DNA of 24,282 nt. Source: a virus. Shown here piece by piece: positions 118-8,421 of the stretch. The DNA is taken from positions 1 through 24,282 of IMG/VR virus record IMGVR_UViG_3300006735_000243. One strand, written 5' to 3'. The translations under genes and the position numbers were made by a program. Positions within the stretch are counted from its first letter, which is position 1; the number at the start of each line of letters is the position of its first letter. Under the pieces are notes generated by a model. That model was not told the DNA's origin and did not search any database. It saw only the letters and a list, made by a program, of their open reading frames with translations.

Positions 118-867
118 TCACAGGTAGTCAAGCACTTGCGAGTGATCCACGTTTGCTATTAATTTTTCTACAGCTTGCTTTTTAAGCTCTGAAACTCTTA
201 CATAAGCTGAAACACCTTTTATTTCTAATGCTGTTGCTATTTCATTAGCAGACCATTTAGGACCATCTAAGCCATAGCTCTTATTTAATACAAACATTTC
301 GTTCCATTCAAGGTATTTATTAAGTAAACTTAACAAGTAAGCATTTAATAAAGTCTCGTTATATGGATCTTTTTTATCAGGTATTTGGTATATCATATCT
401 TCGTCATCTTGCTTTGCATCTATAGATAAGAATATAGAATTAAAAAACATTCTAACCATTTTCTCATCTTTACCTTTTCTCATTTCATTTAACCTATGTT
501 CAGGTATACGCATAGTACCTCTATTTATATCAATAGCTCTACGTATTCCGCCTCTTATTCTTTTAGCTAGAAATGATTTTAAAGTTTTTTCTTGATCTTC
601 TGATTCAATTAATTTAACTCTATCTATTTTATCTACAGCTTTACACAGTTGTAAACTACCTTCTTGTATTATATCCATAATAGACATAACACCTGAAGCT
701 TCTTGAGATGTTGCAAACTTTCTACCTATGTTTTCCACTAAGGGCAGAAATATTGTTTTTAACTCTCTAGGCGTGTAATCTACAAATCTTTTAACTGGTA
801 TAGACCCTATAGCTAGCTTAATGTCTTCTTTATATCTTATATAGTTTTTAACGTTATATTTTTTCAT
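118..867 (-). CDS. Phage-encoded sigma-70-like RNA polymerase sigma factor
   Basis: This 249-aa protein has the order of a small sigma-70 family factor. Residues 64-82 (MDIIQEG...KAVDKID) match region 2.2, the core-RNA-polymerase contact. Residues 96-112 (TLKSFLAKRIRGGIRRAI) fit regions 2.3-2.4, which melt and read the -10 box. Residues 117-131 (GTMRIPEHRLNEMRK) have the R-x-P-x-H signature of region 3. Residues 185-238 hold a region-4-like helix-turn-helix (SANEIATALEI...RVSELKKQAVEKL) for the -35 region. Region 1.1 is absent, as in alternative and phage sigmas. It would redirect host polymerase to phage promoters; the repeated block in this arm is a candidate target, but that link is inferred. 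Its 5' end overlaps the HTH gene by 14 nt, so the two are probably co-transcribed. Confidence 0.82.
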   Translation of the reverse strand: MKKYNVKNYIRYKEDIKLAIGSIPVKRFVDYTPRELKTIFLPLVENIGRKFATSQEASGVMSIMDIIQEGSLQLCKAVDKIDRVKLIESEDQEKTLKSFLAKRIRGGIRRAIDINRGTMRIPEHRLNEMRKGKDEKMVRMFFNSIFLSIDAKQDDEDMIYQIPDKKDPYNETLLNAYLLSLLNKYLEWNEMFVLNKSYGLDGPKWSANEIATALEIKGVSAYVRVSELKKQAVEKLIANVDHSQVLDYL

Positions 868-1477
868 TTTCTATATTTAGAAGATCTTTTTCTTTTTTTA
901 GCTCTTCGCTCATATTTCTATGTATTGTTCTACTTGAACAGTCTAATAGTCCAGCTAACCTTCCTATTGTAATTTTTTTACCTTTATCGTTTAAATCTAT
1001 CATACATTGGTATATAGCTTCTTCATCTATCATAGTTTTTCTACCTATTAATTGTCCTACAATTTTAAGTTTTTGTATTTTAGATAATCCACAACCATCT
1101 TTAAAAACAACTTTACGTAATTTATTATTAGGTGGCTGTTCAAGATCTTGTAAGCAAACATAATCTATAACATTATTTAACATTAAATTATTAATATTAA
1201 AAGTTGTAAAGCCGTTAGGTTTGTAAGCTATAAACTCAGCTAATGCATTAAATTTACTTTTATCCATACTAGGATTAAGCCACCATAGAGTTAATAAGTG
1301 CCATTTTAAAGATCTTATTGTATTTATCTTAGCAGGACTATTAAATAAACTATAATACCCATGAGTACCGTCTTCATAGTACCAACCCCACTCATACTCT
1401 TTTGTAGGTTGATCTTCTGAATACTTACGGTATACAATGCGATTATCGTTAAGATATTTCATATCTCTATGTGACAT
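854..1477 (-). CDS. Putative DNA-binding protein with C-terminal helix-turn-helix
   Basis: This 207-aa protein has no family I can name. The N-terminal half is rich in W and Y (residues 27-70). The C-terminal part, about 167-196 (KKITIGRLAGLLDCSSRTIHRNM), has the spacing of a helix-turn-helix in which a new helix starts at SSRTIHR, as in MarR- or replication-initiator-type winged helices. It is immediately upstream of, and overlaps, the sigma-factor gene. A role in transcription control or replication initiation is therefore plausible but unproven. It ends in charged residues (EELKKEKDLLNIENEKI). Confidence 0.6.
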   Translation of the reverse strand: MSHRDMKYLNDNRIVYRKYSEDQPTKEYEWGWYYEDGTHGYYSLFNSPAKINTIRSLKWHLLTLWWLNPSMDKSKFNALAEFIAYKPNGFTTFNINNLMLNNVIDYVCLQDLEQPPNNKLRKVVFKDGCGLSKIQKLKIVGQLIGRKTMIDEEAIYQCMIDLNDKGKKITIGRLAGLLDCSSRTIHRNMSEELKKEKDLLNIENEKI

Positions 1478-1491
1478 TAGCCTATTACTCT

Positions 1492-1626
1492 TTAATCCTT
1501 AGACCTTGTGTCACACAATGTCTCGTAAATCATTTGTTCTTCTATATCTAGTAGATATTTTTGTATAATATCTTGTAAGGTTGCATGTCCATGCAAATTA
1601 ATATAGTCTTTTTTACTTCCTGCCAT
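1492..1626 (-). CDS. Small hypothetical protein (44 aa)
   Basis: ATG at 1626 and TAA at 1492-1494 give a 44-residue peptide. It begins MAGSKKDYINLHGHATLQDI and has an acidic amphipathic middle (YLLDIEEQMIYETL). It fills the otherwise empty gap between the 62-aa basic gene (ending 1628) and the HTH gene (starting 1477), on the same strand, with gaps of 1 and 14 nt. That tight fit is the main support. The function is unknown. Confidence 0.5.
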   Translation of the reverse strand: MAGSKKDYINLHGHATLQDIIQKYLLDIEEQMIYETLCDTRSKD

Positions 1627-2224: not shown

Positions 2225-3071
2225 AGTTTCTTAAACATTTATAGTGTGGGTGTCTGTAAGAGCCTGCTTGAGTTCTTTGAAAGTAAGTAAAGGTAGCACG
2301 CTGACCTATGTAGTCATTAATGTTATCGAGCATACCTGCTAGATCCTTGTAGTCGTATCCTTTGCCCGGTGGGCAGCCGAACTCAACGCCTTCGTCATCC
2401 TGCATGATGAACTTACCAAGCGTGCCTTGCCTCTTACCTTTACCTATTTCATAACCTACGATAACTGCTTCGTCATCGTGAAAATCTTTAAATTTCATAA
2501 GATCCCATGATCTAGTATTTTTATATACACCGTCAATAGATCTGTATATACTACCTTCATAACCTGATCTTAGGTTGTAATTATGTAGTGACATAGCTTC
2601 GTCAAGGTCTAGTGCAACTTTAGTGTTAATAATTACTAGATGAGGGCTAGTTCTAACAACACTAGAGTCAGTTAGTCTTGTTATAAAACCCATACGCCAG
2701 TCATAAGTAGCGTGTGGAAAACTAGCTACATCGTATATATGATATTGTACTAGTTGAGCTGCTTCATCTCTGTGATCTTGTGTTGGTTTAGTTTTTCTGA
2801 CTAATGAAATAATCTTTTCAAAGTCATCTTTTAGTCCGTGGTTATATAATTCGCCATCTAGTATAAGGTTTGGGTATCTGTTAAATACTACTTCTAAGTC
2901 TTTTTTAATGTGATCTACATTTTTAAACTCTTTACCTGTTCTGCTGTATGCACCATCTTTTGTAAATACACATCTTACGCCATCTAGTTTTGGCTGTATG
3001 TATGCAGGGTAATCAGCTTTTTCAGGATTATATTTATGCGCTAGCATAGGTTTAATCTTCGTCTGAGTCAT
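2217..3071 (-). CDS. ATP-dependent DNA ligase
   Basis: This 284-aa protein is a small viral-type nucleotidyltransferase. It joins nicks by adenylating a lysine, transferring AMP to the 5' phosphate and sealing with the 3' OH. Motif I is KLDGVR at 28-33, with K28 as the adenylation site. Motif III is LDGEL at 71-75, motif IIIa IYDVA at 112-116, motif IV EGSIYR at 172-177 and motif V LMKFKDF at 191-197. The C-terminal about 80 residues (from EAVIVGYEIGKGKRQGTLGK) fit the OB-fold domain. The length matches minimal phage ligases, with no extra DNA-binding domain. It should act in phage replication and recombination. Its start overlaps the upstream 100-aa gene by 20 nt. Confidence 0.93.
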   Translation of the reverse strand: MTQTKIKPMLAHKYNPEKADYPAYIQPKLDGVRCVFTKDGAYSRTGKEFKNVDHIKKDLEVVFNRYPNLILDGELYNHGLKDDFEKIISLVRKTKPTQDHRDEAAQLVQYHIYDVASFPHATYDWRMGFITRLTDSSVVRTSPHLVIINTKVALDLDEAMSLHNYNLRSGYEGSIYRSIDGVYKNTRSWDLMKFKDFHDDEAVIVGYEIGKGKRQGTLGKFIMQDDEGVEFGCPPGKGYDYKDLAGMLDNINDYIGQRATFTYFQRTQAGSYRHPHYKCLRNYE

Positions 3072-3354
3072 AATCTCCTTTTCTTAATTTAGTTTTAATT
3101 GCATTTAATTTGCTTAATAATATCGCTGCTTTTTCATATTCTTCTTTATTTTCAAAGATCATAAGCAGAGTTTGTAATCTTGCAAGCTCACCTATTAAAG
3201 CTTCTTCTTCAGTCATAACAAAAGCTTCTTTGCTAGATTCTTTGCCATAAAGATCTTGAACTGAGCTGTGAAACTCATCATCCCACTCTTGTTGTTTAAC
3301 TTCTAGTTTAGCTATAATAATGTCAGCTAATTGATTCATTGTTTTTTTATCCAT
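3052..3354 (-). CDS. Small acidic helical protein, UVR-like C-terminus
   Basis: The 100-aa product is mostly helical and acidic. The segment at about 71-91 (EEYEKAAILLSKLNAIKTKL) resembles the helical hairpin of UVR/UvrB-C-type motifs (E-x-YEKAAxLxxxI), usually a protein-interaction element; similarity to a named family is not certain. The gene starts exactly 6 nt after the GATAAT of a conserved promoter block (3361-3392), so its mRNA may be leaderless. It overlaps the ligase gene by 20 nt and probably leads that transcription unit. Confidence 0.65.
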   Translation of the reverse strand: MDKKTMNQLADIIIAKLEVKQQEWDDEFHSSVQDLYGKESSKEAFVMTEEEALIGELARLQTLLMIFENKEEYEKAAILLSKLNAIKTKLRKGDYDSDED

Positions 3355-3360
3355 AATAAT

Positions 3361-3392
3361 ATTATCTATTAGTTATCGTATTTAGTTTGTAT
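3361..3392 (-). promoter_or_regulatory. Conserved promoter-like block, copy 1
   Basis: Read on the minus strand it is TACAAACTAAATACGA, a six-base spacer, then AATAGATAAT (partly overlapping the spacer boundary). GATAAT ends exactly 6 nt before the ATG at 3354, where a -10 hexamer would sit if transcription started at the A of ATG. The same block recurs seven more times in this arm. Confidence 0.7.
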
Positions 3393-3393
3393 A

Positions 3394-3459
3394 CCACGAA
3401 AAGCCCGTACCTTTTGAGTACGAGCTTACGCCGGGGCGCAATGCCTTTGCTATTCGTGG
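3394..3459 (-). ncRNA. Candidate structured RNA, three-way junction
   Basis: This 66-nt GC-rich island lies in an AT-rich genome. The closing stem P1 pairs 3453-3459 with 3394-3400 (CCACGAA/TTCGTGG, 7 bp). P2 pairs 3436-3441 with 3426-3431 (TTGCGC/GCGTAA) around the loop CCCG. P3 pairs 3418-3425 with 3403-3410 (GCTCGTAC/GTACGGGC, 8 bp) around a 7-nt loop. P2 and P3 abut with no linker; 11 nt join P1 to P2 and 2 nt join P3 to P1. One pair in P2 and one in P3 are G-U on the minus strand but mismatches on the plus strand, so the RNA is probably the minus transcript. It lies between two genes, just before a promoter block. It matches no riboswitch or ribozyme class I know. Confidence 0.55.
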
Positions 3460-3473
3460 AAACTAAACTACTA

Positions 3474-3743
3474 CTAATCTAACAACACGTAGTAAGCTTC
3501 TGGGTTATTCACCCTAAACCAGTTCAATGCTTTGTCAAATTCATCAATTCGTTTTTTAGTTATTGTTGAAGGTGCTGAGTCAAAAACCATTTGACAACCT
3601 ACTATAAAGTCGTAAATGCTTAGTTCTAAGCCAGTTAGCTCATAACTTTCACCTGAGAAAGGGTTTTTAACTGTTTCACCTTTTGTATATATCATGCCTT
3701 TAAACCACTTTGGTGCTGTCGGCTTCTTCGATTTCGTACTCAT
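3474..3743 (-). CDS. Conserved phage hypothetical protein (PKWFKG / NPFSG type)
   Basis: The 89-aa protein has the pattern PKWFKG-x-IYTKGETVKNPFSGESYELTG, then LELSIYDFIVG, and ends WFRVNNPEAYYVLLD. I recognise this as a family of small proteins seen in many marine and enteric phage genomes, with no known function. The start (ATG 3743) overlaps the upstream acidic gene by 44 nt. The structured RNA begins 15 nt after its stop. Confidence 0.7.
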   Translation of the reverse strand: MSTKSKKPTAPKWFKGMIYTKGETVKNPFSGESYELTGLELSIYDFIVGCQMVFDSAPSTITKKRIDEFDKALNWFRVNNPEAYYVLLD

Positions 3744-4149
3744 TTTTTAAATAATTTATTTCTTCTAATGTAATATCTAGTTCGTCATTTTCTATAATAT
3801 CCTCAACATGTTCTGAAAATAGTTCTAATAATGTGTCATCAAAATAGCAGTCTTCATATATACTATCGCATATGTAGAAAGTTTTGTCATTATAATCTAT
3901 TTGATTTTTAAAAGCTTCTGCAAGATCATGATCATAGTAGTATATGTCTTCGCATATGTTAGGGTGTTTAGTGTTGTTAGTGCACACATACACATCATAA
4001 CCATCTGCAGTAGATTCACTATATATGTGACAATCTACATTATCAAAGTCACTGATATCAGTAGATATTGATATTTCTAAATGATTTTTAATTAGCTCGA
4101 TCATTCTAGACTCGAGCATATCACCTTCTCTTGGTATATTATAGCTCAT
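3700..4149 (-). CDS. Acidic hypothetical protein (149 aa)
   Basis: The product is strongly acidic, with many D, E and Y residues (for example the run ICEDIYYYDHDLAEAF and, near the C-terminus, EDIIENDELDITLEEINY). No conserved domain is recognised. DNA mimicry is one possibility for such acidic early phage proteins, but nothing in the sequence proves it. It overlaps the neighbouring genes at both ends (11 nt with the upstream gene, 44 nt with the downstream gene). Confidence 0.6.
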   Translation of the reverse strand: MSYNIPREGDMLESRMIELIKNHLEISISTDISDFDNVDCHIYSESTADGYDVYVCTNNTKHPNICEDIYYYDHDLAEAFKNQIDYNDKTFYICDSIYEDCYFDDTLLELFSEHVEDIIENDELDITLEEINYLKNEYEIEEADSTKVV

Positions 4150-4489
4150 AATTTAATTTTTTAGTAGTATATAAAAATAATGCTTTTAATCTAGCTTTTC
4201 TAGACCATATTCTCATTCTAGCTTTGTTAGTACTTTCATACTGTTTACCGTTTTGGCCGATAGCTTTATAAGGTACATCATAAGTTGGATTTAGTTGATA
4301 ACACATGCCTACGCCTGTTGGTTTATCTTCTTTATACAAGTTTCTTCTAATATAACCTGTTTTATGCTCTGATACTACTTGACCTGTTGGTAGCTTATAA
4401 GCTGTAGTACCATTGGCTATTTGCCTATCTGTTGTAACGTCTTTGCAACCTAGTGCAAGCATCGCTTTTTCATATTGTTTTTCTGTCAT
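4139..4489 (-). CDS. Hypothetical protein (116 aa), basic C-terminus
   Basis: No family is recognised. The N-terminal part (MTEKQYEKAMLALGCKDVTTD) looks helical. The middle has a beta-rich stretch around YKLPTGQVVSEHKTGYIRRN. The C-terminal 30 residues are basic (NKARMRIWSRKARLKALFLYTTKK), compatible with nucleic-acid contact. The gene sits 6 nt downstream of the 76-aa gene and overlaps the next gene by 11 nt. Confidence 0.55.
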   Translation of the reverse strand: MTEKQYEKAMLALGCKDVTTDRQIANGTTAYKLPTGQVVSEHKTGYIRRNLYKEDKPTGVGMCYQLNPTYDVPYKAIGQNGKQYESTNKARMRIWSRKARLKALFLYTTKKLNYEL

Positions 4490-4495
4490 TAGATT

Positions 4496-4726
4496 TTATT
4501 TATTAAATAGATGATCACCGTACATTAAGTCCATTTGAGTGGTTTCAATTAAAGATACATCGCTAAATGTATTTAATGTTCTAACTTCATCAATAGTTAG
4601 ATCGCTATATCTATTATTGGTTTTTAATTGTTTAAAGATCCCGTCAATGCTAACTGCATATTCTGCATGATGAGCTTCGAGTTTAGCTTTAATTTCTGGT
4701 TTAAGTTGGTCGTATAATGTTTTCAT
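4496..4726 (-). CDS. Small conserved phage hypothetical protein (MKTLYxxLKPEIK type)
   Basis: The 76-aa protein begins MKTLYDQLKPEIKAKLEAH and contains YSDLTIDEVRTLNTFSDVSL. This is an arrangement I have seen in small early proteins of several phage groups; the function is unknown. Its start codon lies exactly 6 nt from a conserved promoter block (4733-4764), which makes it the first gene of a unit that continues leftward. Confidence 0.65.
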   Translation of the reverse strand: MKTLYDQLKPEIKAKLEAHHAEYAVSIDGIFKQLKTNNRYSDLTIDEVRTLNTFSDVSLIETTQMDLMYGDHLFNK

Positions 4727-4732
4727 ATTAAT

Positions 4733-4764
4733 ATTATCCGTAAGTGTTCGTATTTAGTTTGTAA
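4733..4764 (-). promoter_or_regulatory. Conserved promoter-like block, copy 2
   Basis: On the minus strand it has TACAAACTAAATACGA, then ACACTT, then ACGGATAAT. GATAAT ends exactly 6 nt before the ATG at 4726. It differs from the other copies only in the spacer and in the two bases just before GATAAT. Confidence 0.7.
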
Positions 4765-4771
4765 TATTTTG

Positions 4772-5209
4772 TTACATATTTATTTCTGTTTTGACTTGAA
4801 ATAATATATCACCATGATGCTCGTGGTAAAACTCGAACCATTCATCTTCAAACATATCGTAACCTGCTTCTGTTAGGTAGTTGCTTGATTTGAATACATA
4901 GTGTTTACTCATTTCTTCATTCACCATTTCAAATAATGCGTCGTCAAAGTGTCTTAGTATTTTTTCTTTAATAGCATCTTTAGTTTGTGCTATCTCGTTT
5001 TGTGTATATTTACTTGGATTCATTTCTTCGTTTTTATAATAGTCTTCACCCCATAGTTTGTTATGTACTTCATTAAGATGTTCTTTTGTAGTAAATCTAG
5101 GTATATTTTCACCTTCTGCCATTTGTTTAGCTGCTTCTTGATCTTTAATAAAGCTTGGTGATGGTTTCCAATGTGGATTAACCTGTCTTAGTTTGTTTAA
5201 GTCTTTCAT
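4772..5209 (-). CDS. Hypothetical protein (145 aa)
   Basis: The protein is acidic at its C-terminus and rich in aromatic residues (DMFEDEWFEFYHEHHGDILF). The N-terminal 20 residues include VNPHWKPSPSFIKDQ. No domain is recognised. It is separated from the zinc-finger gene by one base and ends just before the promoter block of the next gene. It therefore probably closes a transcription unit that begins with the zinc-finger gene. Confidence 0.6.
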   Translation of the reverse strand: MKDLNKLRQVNPHWKPSPSFIKDQEAAKQMAEGENIPRFTTKEHLNEVHNKLWGEDYYKNEEMNPSKYTQNEIAQTKDAIKEKILRHFDDALFEMVNEEMSKHYVFKSSNYLTEAGYDMFEDEWFEFYHEHHGDILFQVKTEINM

Positions 5210-5210
5210 A

Positions 5211-5426
5211 TTATCGTAGCATTGTGCCGTAACCTTTACGGCGTGTTAGTTTAGCGATGCGATCAGCATCTTCTCTGGATAGTATCTCAATACTATTACC
5301 TGTTTTATGGTTAATAACAGGTGCACAGCCATACTTTTCAATAGTAGAACATGCTACACAGTTATTATAACCATATTTAATTCTTACTGGGTGGATCTCG
5401 TTTCCACATTTACATATTTTATTCAT
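5211..5426 (-). CDS. Small C4 zinc-finger protein (TraR/DksA-like finger)
   Basis: The 71-aa protein has CxC at residues 5-7 (ICKCGNEIHPVR) and CxxC at 23-26 (NNCVACSTIEKYGC), the spacing of a four-cysteine zinc finger. The following INHKTGN segment resembles small phage proteins with a TraR- or DksA-like finger. Those bind RNA polymerase, or DNA, in some phages; which applies here cannot be told. Its ATG lies exactly 6 nt downstream of a conserved promoter block, so it should be the first gene of a unit. Confidence 0.7.
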   Translation of the reverse strand: MNKICKCGNEIHPVRIKYGYNNCVACSTIEKYGCAPVINHKTGNSIEILSREDADRIAKLTRRKGYGTMLR

Positions 5427-5432
5427 ACATAT

Positions 5433-5464
5433 ATTATCTATAAGTGTTCGTATTTAATTTGTAT
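5433..5464 (-). promoter_or_regulatory. Conserved promoter-like block, copy 3
   Basis: On the minus strand it has TACAAATTAAATACGA, then ACACTT, then ATAGATAAT, ending exactly 6 nt before the ATG at 5426. It immediately follows the 3' end of the tRNA-like RNA. Confidence 0.7.
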
Positions 5465-5466
5465 TA

Positions 5467-5638
5467 GAGCGAGAGAGAGGATTCGAACCTCTCATGTCTA
5501 GAACAGTCTGTAACTTCATCGATGGAATTAACTCATTTAATCTGTTACACCTGACCTCGCTGTCCATGCCGAGCCGTCACTCAGCCCTCACAGTTTTTCC
5601 GTTTTCTGCCTGATACGTTACTCAGAAGGGTCTCGGTC
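5467..5638 (-). ncRNA. Candidate tRNA-like / tmRNA-like structured RNA
   Basis: The minus strand carries a textbook T-arm: AGAGG, loop TTCGAAT, CCTCT (5492-5476). An acceptor-like 3' strand ending CTCTCGCTC follows directly. No canonical D-arm (no GG in the loop) or anticodon arm with U33 can be placed, so it is not an ordinary tRNA. Two 5' partners for the acceptor are possible: GACCGAGA (5638-5631, 7 of 8 pairs) enclosing 172 nt, or GCGAG (5560-5556) enclosing 92 nt. Other helices are TGTAAC/GTTACA (5549-5544 with 5514-5509) and a 7-bp hairpin GCTGAGT-GACG-GCTCGGC (5585-5568). The segment GACTGTTCTAGACATG before the T-arm resembles GACTGACTAAGCATG of tmRNA. The exact ends are uncertain. Confidence 0.42.
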
Positions 5639-5644
5639 GTGAGT

Positions 5645-5815
5645 TTAGTTGATTACAAAAGTTAAACCTTTGTAGTTGAACCATGAGTTACACTCATCTG
5701 GTATGCTATCTATAGTGTAGCCTTTTACCATTTGACTTACTTTCTTTTGTGTTATAGTTTCCCAGCCGATCTTAACCTTAGATCTGTCGCTTGGGTAAAA
5801 TTTTATTGTTTTCAT
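5645..5815 (-). CDS. Small hypothetical protein (56 aa) behind a promoter block
   Basis: ATG at 5815 and TAA at 5645-5647 encode a 56-aa protein starting MKTIKFYPSDRSKVKIGWE and ending FNYKGLTFVIN. Its start lies exactly 6 nt after the GATAAT of promoter block copy 4, which is strong positional support. The function is unknown. The structured tRNA-like RNA begins within a few bases after its stop, so it may be processed from the same transcript. Confidence 0.6.
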   Translation of the reverse strand: MKTIKFYPSDRSKVKIGWETITQKKVSQMVKGYTIDSIPDECNSWFNYKGLTFVIN

Positions 5816-5821
5816 ATTAAT

Positions 5822-5853
5822 ATTATCTATTGGTGATCGTATTTATTTTGTAT
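5822..5853 (-). promoter_or_regulatory. Conserved promoter-like block, copy 4
   Basis: On the minus strand it has TACAAAATAAATACGA, then TCACCA, then ATAGATAAT, ending exactly 6 nt before the ATG at 5815. Its upstream part overlaps the last codons and TAA stop of the 53-aa gene. Confidence 0.7.
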
Positions 5854-6004
5854 TTTTATTTACTAGTTTTCTTACTTCTGCTCCAAGATCTTGATTGTTA
5901 GGAAACTTTTCAGCTAACGCTTGTACTTGCCACCATCTTAGTTTAGGTATTGCAGTTTCTTCTTGGTGTTGTTGAAACTCTTGTATTGTTCTAAAATCAT
6001 TCAT
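5843..6004 (-). CDS. Small hypothetical protein (53 aa)
   Basis: ATG at 6004 overlaps the TGA of the upstream 67-aa gene as ATGA. TAA at 5843-5845 lies inside promoter block copy 4. The peptide begins MNDFRTIQEFQQHQEETAIP and continues KLRWWQVQALAEKFPNNQDLG, predicted helical. No family is recognised. The coupling overlap supports translation. Confidence 0.5.
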   Translation of the reverse strand: MNDFRTIQEFQQHQEETAIPKLRWWQVQALAEKFPNNQDLGAEVRKLVNKNTK

Positions 6005-6204
6005 AGTTCTTCAAATTTTATAGTGCTACCATCATCAAACCAAGTTAACTCTGGGTCTATTATTAGCTCACCGTTGTATATTTTTCTTGCTTGATTATAA
6101 GCGTATTGCCATTTCTGTGTTTCAGTACCTGCATTTTGTCTAGCACCATAGTATCCGGCTAAGATATCTTTTGTTATCGCCTCTATTGCTCTTATTTCAT
6201 TCAT
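6001..6204 (-). CDS. Small hypothetical protein (67 aa)
   Basis: The product starts MNEIRAIEAITKDILAGYYG, has a helical middle rich in Q, A and Y (TQKWQYAYNQARKIYNGEL) and ends in an acidic tail (DDGSTIKFEEL). No domain is recognised. It overlaps its upstream neighbour by 8 nt and its downstream neighbour by ATGA, within the chain of four genes running from 6681 to 5843. Confidence 0.55.
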   Translation of the reverse strand: MNEIRAIEAITKDILAGYYGARQNAGTETQKWQYAYNQARKIYNGELIIDPELTWFDDGSTIKFEEL

Positions 6205-6397
6205 ATCTTCTTTCGTATATTTTATTCATTAAATCTTCTACTAAGTCTTTCTCAGTATCATTTCCTTGTAGCTCACAGTCTATACTTACAAACTGTTCTA
6301 CTTGTGTCAACACTTGATCTACATCTGCGTAATTACTTATGAATATGAAGTGATCGATAGTGTCAGGATTCCAATATATTTGTTTACTCTTGCTCAT
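6197..6397 (-). CDS. Small acidic hypothetical protein (66 aa)
   Basis: The protein contains IYWNPDTIDHFIFISNYADVDQVLTQVEQF (residues 7-36) and an acidic C-terminal half (ELQGNDTEKDLVEDLM). No family is recognised. It overlaps the upstream gene by ATGA (6394-6397) and the downstream gene by 8 nt. Confidence 0.55.
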   Translation of the reverse strand: MSKSKQIYWNPDTIDHFIFISNYADVDQVLTQVEQFVSIDCELQGNDTEKDLVEDLMNKIYERRYE

Positions 6398-6681
6398 ATT
6401 AATTCAAGTTTATTTAGTAATTCTTTTGATTTATACCTTAGCATATTACCACCGTGGTTGTCTAGTATCATTCTATGTAATACTTCTGTTACTCCATGAG
6501 TTCCTGTTACCATAAACTCTCTAGCATCTTTGCTATTGTCTTTCTTGAAGTCGTAAAAGTTACAACCACCATATTTCTTTTGAAGTTTAATTAGATCAGA
6601 TATAAAGTCGTTAACTATTTCTCTGCACTCTGCACTTACTCTTTCTTTTAGTGCTTTTTCTATTGCGTTAGTACTATTCAT
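6394..6681 (-). CDS. Hypothetical protein (95 aa)
   Basis: The 95-aa protein begins MNSTNAIEKALKERVSAECR and includes KKYGGCNFYDFKKDNSKDAREF, then GTHGVTEVLHRMILDNHGGNML. No domain is recognised. It is translationally coupled to the 50-aa coiled-coil gene upstream (ATGA at 6678-6681) and to the 66-aa gene downstream. Confidence 0.55.
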   Translation of the reverse strand: MNSTNAIEKALKERVSAECREIVNDFISDLIKLQKKYGGCNFYDFKKDNSKDAREFMVTGTHGVTEVLHRMILDNHGGNMLRYKSKELLNKLELI

Positions 6682-6830
6682 TTTTTCTTATTTTTTAAAG
6701 AGTTAATCTCACTTTTCAACTGGTGGATCTCAGTTTGGCATTTTCTCATGTTGTCCTTCATCTTTCTATCTTGGTAAAATTGATTCCAAGAATATAAGTT
6801 TTGCAACTTCTTTATTTTACTTTGTATCAT
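6678..6830 (-). CDS. Small coiled-coil protein (50 aa)
   Basis: ATG at 6830 and TGA at 6678-6680 encode a 50-aa, lysine- and glutamine-rich peptide (MIQSKIKKLQNLYSWNQFYQ, then a helix CQTEIHQLKSEINSLKNKKK with heptad-like hydrophobics). It overlaps the upstream gene's end by 14 nt and the downstream gene's start by ATGA. The function is unknown. Confidence 0.5.
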   Translation of the reverse strand: MIQSKIKKLQNLYSWNQFYQDRKMKDNMRKCQTEIHQLKSEINSLKNKKK

Positions 6831-7083
6831 TTACTTTTTGTACTTTATTTAGTAATTCGTGTATTTCTTCGTTTGGAAAGGTAGAATACACCTCGTCTAC
6901 CTTATCACTTACATAGTCGTAAGTAAATTCTTTTGGTTGAACACTATAATGACTTACAACTAGATCTCGTTTGTCATAACCATAAGGACTATGGTATGCT
7001 TTGTAGATTGCGAGCTTCATGCCACCATCGTTGAAGATCATAGCGTCGAGATGTCTAGTTTGTATGTATTTTATGTTGTTCAT
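6817..7083 (-). CDS. Hypothetical protein (88 aa), MNN-family
   Basis: The protein begins MNNIKYIQTRHLDAMIF and contains EFTYDYVSDKVDEVYSTFPNEE. The FTYDxx...DEVYSTF segment recurs in the 76-aa protein at 7708-7938 (FTYDHDEIYSTF), which also starts MNNI, so the two look like diverged duplicates. No known family. The start is exactly 6 nt from promoter block copy 5; the unit probably runs down to 5843 through overlapping genes. Confidence 0.6.
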   Translation of the reverse strand: MNNIKYIQTRHLDAMIFNDGGMKLAIYKAYHSPYGYDKRDLVVSHYSVQPKEFTYDYVSDKVDEVYSTFPNEEIHELLNKVQKVNDTK

Positions 7084-7089
7084 GTAATT

Positions 7090-7121
7090 ATTATCTTTTA
7101 GTGATCGTATTTATTTTGTAT
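7090..7121 (-). promoter_or_regulatory. Conserved promoter-like block, copy 5
   Basis: On the minus strand it has TACAAAATAAATACGA, then TCACTA, then AAAGATAAT, ending exactly 6 nt before the ATG at 7083. It overlaps the 3' end of the 55-aa gene. Confidence 0.7.
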
Positions 7122-7258
7122 ATACATTTAGTTATGTCTATACCTACTTCTTCAAGGAAGTCGATGAAGTCATTAGTTAATTCAGGTGAGTTATTATATT
7201 GATAAGTAGTTTCACCATCAGGTAAGGTGATCTCGAATTCATAGTCAAAGTTATTCAT
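7091..7258 (-). CDS. Small acidic hypothetical protein (55 aa), MNN-type start
   Basis: ATG at 7258 and TAA at 7091-7093 encode MNNFDYEFEITLPDGETTYQ, then YNNSPELTNDFIDFLEEVGI and a basic end. The last dozen codons run through promoter block copy 5, so the block is embedded in coding sequence. It may be a distant relative of the two MNNI proteins on either side (beta strand, E/D-rich, then helix). The leader upstream (7259-7430) is long and may be regulatory. Confidence 0.5.
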   Translation of the reverse strand: MNNFDYEFEITLPDGETTYQYNNSPELTNDFIDFLEEVGIDITKCIYKINTITKR

Positions 7259-7647
7259 AGTTATTTATTTTTATTAATAGTACCACGATTTACGTTTTTC
7301 ACCACGTGGAGCGATCTTTCGACTTATTTACACTATTTAAAGTTATTAATTTTTGTTGAGTAATATATTCGTTATATTTATAGTCTCTAAAGTATTACTA
7401 TCAACTAAGACTTTTGTTGTTGTTTATTATATTATCTTTACTATATCGTAATTAGTTTGTAACTAAGTTAACATGAGTAAGATCGTTAGTGTAAGTAGTG
7501 TTATTACTTGTAATATTAGTATATTTATTCTATGTTTATTTACCATTTTAGTTTAGTTTAAAGGTGATCAATTATTTATTTATTATTTTTAGTGATGAGG
7601 TATTATGCTATAACTCACTGTATTTAATTAGTTATAATTATTAGTAA
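7259..7647 (-). other. Long intergenic stretch with a leader-like hairpin region
   Basis: I find no convincing gene here. A degenerate promoter block lies at 7431-7462, and a transcript from it would carry an untranslated leader of about 170 nt before the ATG at 7258. Within that leader are a hairpin closed by CCACG/CGTGG (7309-7305 with 7287-7283) and a small stem CGA-AAGA-TCG (7321-7312). The rest (about 7463-7647) is low-complexity AT sequence. Confidence 0.4.
7431..7462 (-). promoter_or_regulatory. Conserved promoter-like block, copy 8 (degenerate)
   Basis: On the minus strand it has TACAAACTAATTACGA, then a variable spacer, then AAAGATAAT. It has one change (A to T) in the otherwise constant TAAATACGA. 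No ATG follows at the 6-nt position, so any transcript would be leadered and reach the 55-aa gene at 7258. Confidence 0.5.
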
Positions 7648-7700
7648 GTGTGACAATAGCCTATTAAGAATACTAGAGTAACAGGCTAGTGTCATAGTTT
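7648..7700. repeat. 53-bp inverted-repeat element, copy A
   Basis: Copy A matches copy B (8277-8329) at 43 of 53 positions with no gaps. Its ends are TGTGACA and TGTCATA (near-perfect inverted repeat), with a second inner pair AGCCT/AGGCT around a 20-nt loop. It begins 7 nt beyond the stop of the 76-aa gene (stop codon 7708-7710) on its 3' side. It could be a terminator (no clear U-tract here), an operator or a small mobile relic. Confidence 0.65.
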
Positions 7701-7707
7701 ACTCAAC

Positions 7708-7938
7708 TTAAGATACTTCTGCGAGTGATCTAGCGAAAGCTGGTACAGTATTACTATTAGTATACGACTTGTATTCTTGGAAACACTTCATTGATTCAAA
7801 CTTTTCTTGAAATGTAGAGTAGATCTCGTCGTGATCGTAAGTGAATGTTTGATCTTTTTTATTAGTGAAAGTGATTACTGCGTTTTCACCGATTAATGAT
7901 TTTCTGATTACAAATCTTTTAGTTGTTATATTATTCAT
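7708..7938 (-). CDS. Hypothetical protein (76 aa), MNN-family, first leftward gene
   Basis: The protein begins MNNITTKRFVIRKSLIGENA and contains TFTYDHDEIYSTFQEKF, shared in outline with the 88-aa protein at 6817-7083. It is the first gene leftward of the divergent control region, with two tandem promoter blocks upstream (7982-8013, 8059-8090). A leader of about 43 nt from the nearer block is expected, unlike the other units. The position suggests strong early expression. The function is unknown. Confidence 0.6.
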   Translation of the reverse strand: MNNITTKRFVIRKSLIGENAVITFTNKKDQTFTYDHDEIYSTFQEKFESMKCFQEYKSYTNSNTVPAFARSLAEVS

Positions 7939-7981
7939 AGTTATTATATTTAGTTATTATTAATTTAGTTTAGTTATTATT

Positions 7982-8013
7982 ATTATCTATTGACAATCGT
8001 ATTTAGTTTGTAA
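7982..8013 (-). promoter_or_regulatory. Conserved promoter-like block, copy 6
   Basis: On the minus strand it has TACAAACTAAATACGA, then TTGTCA, then ATAGATAAT. It is the nearer of two tandem copies upstream of the gene at 7938, with about 43 nt between GATAAT and the ATG. Confidence 0.65.
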
Positions 8014-8058
8014 CTAACTTTGTTTATTTAATTTAGTTTGTTAGTTTGTTATGTATAT

Positions 8059-8090
8059 ATTATCTATTCAGCATCGTATTTAGTTTGTAG
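8059..8090 (-). promoter_or_regulatory. Conserved promoter-like block, copy 7
   Basis: On the minus strand it has TACAAACTAAATACGA, then TGCTGA, then ATAGATAAT. It is the farther tandem copy, 77 nt from copy 6, with no ATG between them. Only the six spacer bases differ between the two. Confidence 0.65.
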
Positions 8091-8143
8091 ATGTAGTAGT
8101 AATTATGAAAACGTTGAAGTAGACACAATATTATAATGAAAAC

Positions 8144-8166
8144 GATCATATATATACAATATGATC
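8144..8166. promoter_or_regulatory. 23-bp perfect inverted repeat, operator-like
   Basis: GATCATAT and ATATGATC, 8 bp each, flank a 7-nt centre. The size and symmetry fit a dimeric repressor or activator site. It lies between the leftward and rightward promoters. Being AT-rich, it could partly arise by chance. Confidence 0.4.
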
Positions 8167-8177
8167 TCAAAAACAAT

Positions 8178-8245
8178 GGGGGCTGCAAAATATAAAATTG
8201 ATTTTGTAATGAAAAATAAAATTATATTGTGAGGGTGCAGTACCC
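8178..8245 (+). other. Competing GC stems, switch-like leader candidate
   Basis: GGG-CTGC (8180-8186) can pair with GCAG-TA-CCC (8237-8245) across 50 AT-rich bases. The 3' part can instead fold locally as GGGT-GCAGT-ACCC (8233-8245). These are almost the only G/C runs in the region. An 18-codon frame (8177-8233) spans the loop. It could be a regulatory leader, but the evidence is thin. Confidence 0.25.
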
Positions 8246-8276
8246 AACTCCTATATTTTTAACAATAATAAAAAAA

Positions 8277-8329
8277 GTGTGACAATAGGTTGTTAATAAG
8301 CCTAGAATAACAGGCAAATGTCACAGTTT
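8277..8329. repeat. 53-bp inverted-repeat element, copy B
   Basis: This is the sister of 7648-7700 (43 of 53 identical). The ends TGTGACA and TGTCACA are a perfect 7-bp inverted repeat. Inside, GCCT and AGGC (8300-8314) can pair. Read on the minus strand, the hairpin is followed by CTTTTTTTATT, a terminator-like tract; on the plus strand it is followed by GTTTT. It could stop convergent transcripts or bind a regulator just upstream of the rightward promoter. Confidence 0.65.
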
Positions 8330-8352
8330 TCTAGTTATTTCAGCATGTAAAA

Positions 8353-8381
8353 TTGTTAGTTGTTGTGTAATAAGCTATATT
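8353..8381 (+). promoter_or_regulatory. Sigma-70-like rightward promoter for the late genes
   Basis: TTGTTA (8353-8358) and TATATT (8376-8381) are separated by exactly 17 bp, about 40 nt before the first rightward ATG (8422). It matches the general sigma-70 layout, but AT-rich DNA gives such matches easily. A Bacteroidota-type -7/-33 promoter is not evident here. Confidence 0.35.
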
Positions 8382-8421
8382 AAGACCAAAATTGGTTAAA
8401 AATATTAAAAAACAAAGATAA

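Follow-up and report, generated by a model that had tools for sequence, protein, structure and literature searches.

A two-part promoter block in an uncultured phage and the phage-encoded sigma factor that probably reads it

Promoter Block and Adjoining Genes

The IMG/VR virus record IMGVR_UViG_3300006735_000243, analyzed over its whole length of 24,282 bases (the window), carries a repeated two-part sequence block on its minus strand, where the genes form a dense one-strand array around the copies, and a gene for a putative sigma factor further along the same strand. A first-pass annotation had described eight minus-strand copies, and all eight prove exact: they are 31-mers fitting TACAAANTAANTACGAN6ANNGATAAT with no mismatch, against 0.01 expected by chance, and eight or more copies were reached in 0 of 100 shuffles. 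The copies, each a predicted promoter, are as follows.

3361–3391, minus strand: copy 1, exact match, TACAAACTAAATACGA-N9-GATAAT; predicted transcription start (+1) is the A of the ATG at 3354
4733–4763, minus strand: copy 2, exact match; predicted +1 is the A of the ATG at 4726
5433–5463, minus strand: copy 3, exact match; predicted +1 is the A of the ATG at 5426
5822–5852, minus strand: copy 4, exact match; predicted +1 is the A of the ATG at 5815
7090–7120, minus strand: copy 5, exact match; predicted +1 is the A of the ATG at 7083
7431–7461, minus strand: copy 6, exact match and the single variant copy, TAATTACGA, that the annotation had claimed; leadered, 166 nucleotides (nt) to the ATG at 7258
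7982–8012, minus strand: copy 7, exact match; leadered, 37 nt to the ATG at 7938
8059–8089, minus strand: copy 8, the most upstream, exact match; leadered, 114 nt to the same ATG at 7938

Exactly 6 nt separate GATAAT from the ATG in copies 1 to 5, and the remaining three copies lack an ATG at this position, both as previously described; each of the three has an A there, and the distances listed run from the predicted +1 to the first open reading frame (ORF) of at least 39 amino acids (aa). The upstream 16-mer taken alone, at up to three mismatches, occurs 13 times in the window against 8.3 expected, which is not significant, and the significance belongs to the two-part block. No copy with up to three mismatches is present on the plus strand of the window.

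Numbered from +1, TACAAAnTAAnTACGA spans −37 to −22, G(−12)ATAAT(−7) forms the −10 element, followed by A at −6 and a purine at +1. With GATAAT at −12 to −7 and +1 falling 7 nt after its last T, the earlier proposal of leaderless messages is supported by the sequence for five genes of the window.

3052–3354, minus strand: predicted leaderless gene, MDKKTMNQLADI..., 100 aa, at the head of the supposed ligase-ORF2-sigma transcript
4496–4726, minus strand: predicted leaderless gene, 76 aa; similar proteins in relatives also start at +1
5211–5426, minus strand: predicted leaderless gene for a protein with the cysteine motif CKCGN, 71 aa
5645–5815, minus strand: predicted leaderless gene, MKTIKFYPSD... 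(KTIKF), 56 aa
6817–7083, minus strand: predicted leaderless gene, 88 aa

Two further features lie among these genes. An imperfect hairpin, CCACGAA...TTCGTGG, spotted by eye at 3391–3470 (minus strand) directly upstream of the 3361 promoter, is possibly the terminator of the preceding transcript. At 5479–5489 (minus strand) and in the surroundings to 5645, a T-arm-like sequence, GGTTCGAATCC, suggests a decayed or unusual tRNA-like RNA; similar T-arm ends precede small genes in three relatives (L146, L148, and L149). ARAGORN found no tRNA or tmRNA, and an Rfam search of positions 3300–8400 found no known RNA family at E 0.5.

The Block in Other Viral Contigs

An exact scan of the IMG/VR viral contigs found the block in at least 117 stretches. 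Among the matches listed, 154 unique sites have A (110), G (39), T (5), or C (0) at +1, and 50 have ATG there; the 104 sites without ATG divide into 60 A, 39 G, 5 T, and 0 C. Selection on GATAAT was then avoided by choosing relatives through the sigma gene instead of the motif and by locating sites with the upstream half alone ([TC]ACAAAnTAAnTACGA). All 65 unique sites found in this way in 20 relatives lie on the sigma strand, and all 65 have G−12, A−11, T−10, T−7, and A−6 at a fixed spacing, followed at +1 by A (53) or G (12), with ATG in 37. Adding the window gives 73 sites, 42 of them with ATG at +1, and T at −1 in 81%. The features expected of a sigma-dependent promoter, namely a −10 hexamer, a purine start, an element near −35, and fixed spacing, are present at all 65 sites of the relatives and all eight of the window, and on this sequence evidence we regard the block as a promoter.

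A recount with shorter windows, the present record included, places ATG at +1 in 43 of 75 sites against 1.5 expected, a very large effect even though its formal probability is overstated because related sites are not independent. Of the ORFs opened by these ATGs, 42 reach at least 39 aa and the other is cut off by a contig end, whereas 18–21% of random ATGs open ORFs reaching 40 aa. The arrangement of a leaderless gene, in which the −10 occupies −12 to −7 and a long ORF opens with the A of its ATG on +1, is found at five of the eight window sites and at 43 of 75 overall. Because ATG abuts five of the eight window copies, GATAAT-N6-ATG could also be taken for an RNA or translation-initiation element in place of a promoter. 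We give this reading almost no credence, as the same block stands at the same spacing to a purine ahead of leaders of up to 191 nt, and as it has a two-part layout with invariant −12, −11, −10, −7, and −6.

A Phage Sigma Factor and Its Conserved Partner

The sigma-70-like protein is encoded at the end of the window, next to a second conserved gene.

118–867, minus strand: predicted phage sigma factor with regions 2 and 4, which we propose reads the promoter; identified by PHROG 351, profile matches in the PDB, and AlphaFold2/Foldseek
854–1477, minus strand: ORF2, conserved partner of sigma with a C-terminal helix-turn-helix, directly upstream of sigma

The ORF at 118–867 matches PHROG 351 (RNA polymerase sigma factor) over residues 41–237 (E 4e-14), and its family profile matches SigA and FliA chains in the PDB through region 2 (best E 1e-7, positions 30–130), placing it by region 2 homology in the sigma-70 family. 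It also matches TIGR02997 (E 1e-9), although all NCBIfam matches fall under their curated cut-offs, and Pfam Sigma70_r2 scores 19.6 bits, under its gathering cut-off of 24. A region 4 helix-turn-helix is indicated by the PHROG 351 and TIGR02937 alignments, which extend to residues 237 and 235, and by helices at 188–198, 207–213, and 221–239 in the AlphaFold2 model. This model is helical, with a predicted local distance difference test (pLDDT) score of 83 and a predicted template modeling (TM) score of 0.50, and its best 50 Foldseek matches in the PDB are all sigma or RNA polymerase initiation-complex entries, at low TM-scores (0.26–0.35) that are expected because the domains are flexibly placed. 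In the alignment with SigA, K102-R103 stand in place of the two tryptophans that precede the −10 recognition helix, G106 in place of the glutamine, and R109 in place of the residue ahead of the conserved arginine, all invariant across 22 members of the family; R109 could presumably suit the G at −12, judging from known sigma-70 contacts. A tblastn search of 50,697 GenBank phage records with the sigma protein gave no match at E 1e-5.

In the window the sigma start is overlapped by ORF2, and 24 of 30 loci have an ORF of at least 120 aa whose end falls no more than 60 nt from the sigma start. The product of ORF2 is conserved, about 200 aa long, and modeled by AlphaFold2 at a pLDDT of 89, with an N-terminal part that has no recognized fold; a fold search against the PDB gave nothing significant (best E 1.4). 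We consider it a candidate DNA binder.

The window has three copies of a long imperfect dyad, GTGACAnTAGCC...GGCTAnTGTCAC, at 1471–1514 (minus strand), where the dyad overlaps the ORF2 ATG, and at 7650–7695 and 8279–8324 (both plus strand). In 19 of 36 relatives a copy lies 630–690 nt ahead of the sigma start, with further copies more upstream. The dyad is possibly an operator or RNA hairpin of ORF2, serving autoregulation or a late switch, or may instead be a terminator because several copies facing away from sigma precede AGTTTT or similar sequences. Two relatives have unusual sigma loci. The 129.5-kb contig G062 (the record of L051) has two intact sigma genes 62 kb apart (C1:20760–21524 and 83045–83800), and may represent two phages joined in assembly or a genome present in duplicate. 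In G048 (the record of L027) the sigma frame is broken (C1:55767–56520), giving two overlapping matches with stops, and the motif is still present.

Co-occurrence of Sigma Factor and Block

Of 37 sigma-encoding records, 25 contain the motif at up to two mismatches, and matches to the reversed pattern number zero. With a genome-adapted profile and more upstream sequence, the window and 36 relatives yield 210 sites oriented with sigma and 4 on the opposite strand. In 852 kb of sigma phages, a looser core admitting other variants of the motif (ACG[AT]-N9-GAT[AT][AT]T-A-N5-purine) gives 157 sites on the sigma strand against 1 on the opposite strand, and in 361 kb of six GenBank relatives it gives 2; one record, G030, has seven sites by adapted profile and none by the fixed core. 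Starting from the motif, the 80 loci that the scan listed include 38 motif-bearing records of at least 45 kb; 31 of these encode the sigma, with a broken frame in one, G048, and all 22 records of at least 58 kb are among the 31. The motif-picked and sigma-picked sets (38 and 37 records) share four records.

The GenBank relatives (Elemovirus, Callevirus, Baltivirus, and Gundelvirus phages, Maribacter phage Panino, and MW202828) have a related terminase (28–65% identical), several have an annotated GroEL or GroES, and several have opposed early and late gene blocks. They differ in that all six examined lack both elements: the profile that found the sigma in motif-bearing records found none in these phages, and the motif is absent at up to three mismatches. 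The likely reader of the motif, on the strength of this co-occurrence, is the phage's own sigma. An MW202828 gene beside thyX, tried as a possible sigma, was rejected as a metallophosphoesterase.

A phage-encoded or virion-borne RNA polymerase, in place of a sigma and the host core enzyme, might also read the motif; such virion polymerases are reported for some other phages, for example Thermus phage P23-45 (PMC10770324), and MW202828 has a giant protein of 3859 aa. We judge this very improbable. RNA polymerase beta-prime domains were found in 0 of 20 records and in 14 of 14 positive controls, the MW202828 protein (the only giant checked) matches no RNA polymerase family and comes from a phage that does not have the motif, and the −35/−10 layout fits a sigma-dependent polymerase. 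A search for T7-type polymerases gave no signal in the records and none in the positive controls either.

Genome-Specific Promoter Variants

The block varies from genome to genome. By fixed pattern, G032 has GATATT at all eight sites, three sites of G036 read AAAAACGA, and G004 mixes GATAAT and GATTAT; G024 has TATAnGTTT...ACGA by adapted profile. Position −13, which the pattern leaves free, is G in G010 (5/5), G013 (3/3), and G020 (3/3), A in G006 (7/7) and at seven of the eight window sites, and mixed elsewhere (two A and two G in G011). In a permutation test identity at −13 was 0.67 within and 0.32 between genomes, with no difference at the near-invariant −12, −11, −10, −7, and −6 and slight differences at some spacer columns, but the test is partly circular in that the sites were chosen with the genome-adapted profile, and the claim of genome-specific variants rests on the fixed patterns for this reason. 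Such variants fit a trans-acting factor encoded by the phage.

Likely Host and Host-Type Promoters

The window terminase is nearest to that of MW202828 (65%), followed by Flavobacterium, Cellulophaga, Maribacter, and Tenacibaculum phages (28–37%), and its GroEL is about 40% identical to GroELs of Flavobacterium and Bacteroides phages, as well as of records carrying an Acinetobacter or Vibrio phage label. Among 84,980 species genomes the exact motif occurs in four stretches, belonging to two Flavobacteriaceae metagenome-assembled genomes (MAGs), one Bacteroidetes MAG, and one contig of 4.3 kb that was binned as Ilumatobacteraceae and has a phage sigma gene of its own (68% identity). We infer that the host is likely flavobacterial.

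The primary-sigma promoter consensus reported for such hosts is TTTG/TAnnTTTG (PMC6847099), with TTTG at −33 and TAnnTTTG at −7, and the block has GATAAT. Host-type sites (TTG-N17-22-TAHHTTTG) number 66 against 40.3 in shuffles for the six GenBank relatives pooled, five of them being above expectation (two relatives partly covered). The corresponding counts in stretches of the sigma phages, mostly near early genes, are 100 against 105.1 expected, with 755 against 893 for the −7 element. In the window two full matches (1.25 expected) and 18 −7 elements (26 expected) were found, so that no host promoter was found for the first expression of sigma. The first late (plus-strand) gene was not matched in relatives by its N-terminus and accordingly no late promoter is defined.

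The absence of an identified late-gene promoter leaves room for a late role of the sigma, and with it for the proposal that the upstream block is an activator site, for instance for ORF2, which would direct the host sigma-A holoenzyme much as MotA does in T4. The 16-bp block, reaching −22, is longer than a typical −35, and a conserved helix-turn-helix protein is encoded directly upstream of sigma. However, GATAAT is unlike the host −7 element, the late strand of the window has no copy, the sigma family spans regions 2 and 4, and the −10 itself varies by genome, as in G032. A MotA-type activator aiding host sigma, in line with the first-pass annotation's comparison of the box with MotA-type promoters, is unsupported, given a phage that encodes a sigma-70-like protein co-occurring with the motif and a −10 other than that of the host sigma, and we regard this alternative as improbable.

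Leaderless and Leadered Genes

Leaders were counted at 148 sites, in 24 genomes with at least four sites each, where an ORF of at least 39 aa begins within 60 nt. The leader measures 0 nt at 50 sites, 1–8 nt at 11, and 9–60 nt at 87, and 18 of the 24 genomes have at least one leaderless site. A constant distance from block to ATG, whose variation in close relatives the first-pass annotation had named as a ground for giving up its proposal, thus does not hold in the relatives; the fixed distance, as the sites indicate, is that from promoter to +1 and not to ATG. It follows that leaderlessness would be a property of some genes and clades and not of the promoter class.

The class of a gene appears largely conserved between genomes. 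Where the gene lies within 60 nt of a site, and counting the window, the KTIKF gene has ATG at +1 in eight of nine genomes, with an 18 nt leader in G024, and the TTKRF gene (7938 in the window) has a leader of 18–43 nt in ten of ten. The CKCGN-type gene is leaderless in five of eight genomes, the others having leaders of 2, 11, and 22 nt. G024, G032, and G036, in which +1 is mostly G (8/11, 9/11, and 10/11), have zero leaderless genes.

In a dense one-strand array, ATG at +1 could be a by-product of compact packing at real promoters, the genes being translated mainly from transcripts reading through from upstream. The likely hosts rarely use leaderless genes according to published surveys, which detected them in 1 of 37 Bacteroidetes/Chlorobi genomes (PMC3160421) and report leaders longer than 10 nt for 87% of predicted Flavobacterium johnsoniae transcripts (PMC6847099). 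Packing should, however, also yield leaders of 1–8 nt, which are few beside the 50 sites at 0 nt, and orthologues tend to keep their class, as the KTIKF and TTKRF genes do. We think it unlikely that these genes are translated mainly from read-through transcripts.

Proposed Mechanism

We propose that the block is the promoter of the phage-encoded sigma acting with host core RNA polymerase, and put the probability of this at about 0.82. Sigma made early would bind the host core polymerase and bring about initiation at up to about a dozen early-strand sites. The copy at 3361, the last before sigma with no other copy in between, would drive the ligase-ORF2-sigma unit and create positive feedback on sigma. 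In the clade of the window many promoters would abut the coding sequence, with the A of ATG as +1 and leaderless mRNAs as the result, while a leader, often of 18–23 nt, would follow the same promoter at the TTKRF gene, which comes first after 8059 and 7982, and at every gene seen in certain other clades. Recognition of the motif by this particular sigma, the exact +1, and translation of a 5′-terminal AUG are all inferred from sequence.

Several observations weigh against this reading. Seven of the 38 motif-bearing records, all under 58 kb, show no sigma, and no convincing site is present in five of 36 sigma-encoding records (G003, G012, G016, G019, and G025, all under 42 kb); the latter are probably fragments, because G003 has the same sigma protein as G004, and G019 the same as G010, and sites are present in both G004 and G010. 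The region 4 stretch of the sigma (residues 162–236) scores 4 bits against SigA, which is non-significant by itself. The upstream block extends further toward −10 than a usual −35, and an extra factor may bind it. Leader length varies, so promoter function does not need ATG at +1, and the sites of related genomes are not independent of one another. The permutation test is, as described, partly circular, and covariation between sigma residues and motif columns, in which residue 228 and its neighbors in a region-4 helix recur, is only suggestive, being uncorrected for kinship. Gundel, one of the six GenBank relatives, has no excess of host-type sites (6 against 9.4).

A broader scenario is tentative, and we hold it to be possible but doubtful: the lineage would have replaced host promoters by a self-amplifying sigma regulon, shifting between leadered and AUG-at-+1 promoters for internal early genes while the first early gene stayed leadered, so that two modes of translation run side by side in a host making hardly any use of leaderless mRNAs. 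As part of this scenario, and no more certain than it, the leadered promoters would often start with G and have leaders of approximately 11–43 nt. If true, the two modes perhaps keep early proteins being made, by 70S ribosomes, while normal initiation is shut down.

Comparison with Known Systems

Phage-encoded sigma factors with cognate promoters are known from Bacillus phage SPO1 (gp28) and T4 (gp55). As in those phages, a phage gene is predicted here to supply a sigma that redirects the host core polymerase to phage promoters; unlike gp28 and gp55, this sigma spans regions 2 and 4, and its predicted promoters have G−12, a 16-bp upstream block, and a +1 often on AUG. T4 middle promoters combine a MotA box with a −10, and MotA works with host sigma-70. 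They resemble the present block in having a TATAAT-like −10 with a conserved box upstream at a fixed distance, and differ in that the phage described here encodes its own sigma and its −10 is a non-host element.

Thermus phage P23-45 makes leaderless middle and late mRNAs. Leaderless phage transcripts are thus shared as a class, if the prediction made here is right, whereas promoter class and sigma differ: the P23-45 middle and late promoters are described as extended −10 promoters used by the sigma-A holoenzyme (PMC7403470). Phage transcripts are reported to be often leaderless (PMC5312081). Leaderless genes of Deinococcus-Thermus are described as having a −10 adjoining the ORF (PMC12340547), and a TANNNT about 12 bp ahead of the start codon is reported for leaderless genes (PMC3160421). 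The −10 directly before the start codon and the 5′-terminal AUG are common to these and to our predicted genes, but the published cases are host genes with sigma-70/A-type −10 boxes, whereas the present ones would depend on a phage sigma in a phylum with few leaderless-positive genomes.

In the open-licence literature we found neither the whole 16-mer nor a phage sigma regulon with +1 often on AUG for flavobacterial or Bacteroidetes-type hosts. Phage sigmas that have their own promoters are known, as are phage mRNAs without leaders, and what we did not find described is their combination in such hosts, a sigma regulon with frequent AUG-at-+1 promoters. The promoter and sigma pair could become an orthogonal expression tool in Flavobacterium, and the promoter variants of individual genomes are usable for studying the co-evolution of sigma and promoter. 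Leaderless mRNAs are predicted here in a phylum where they are rare, and pairs of the same gene with and without a leader allow a direct test. For an uncultured phage group seen in many viral contigs, the block would provide a readable promoter code tied to a single sigma gene.

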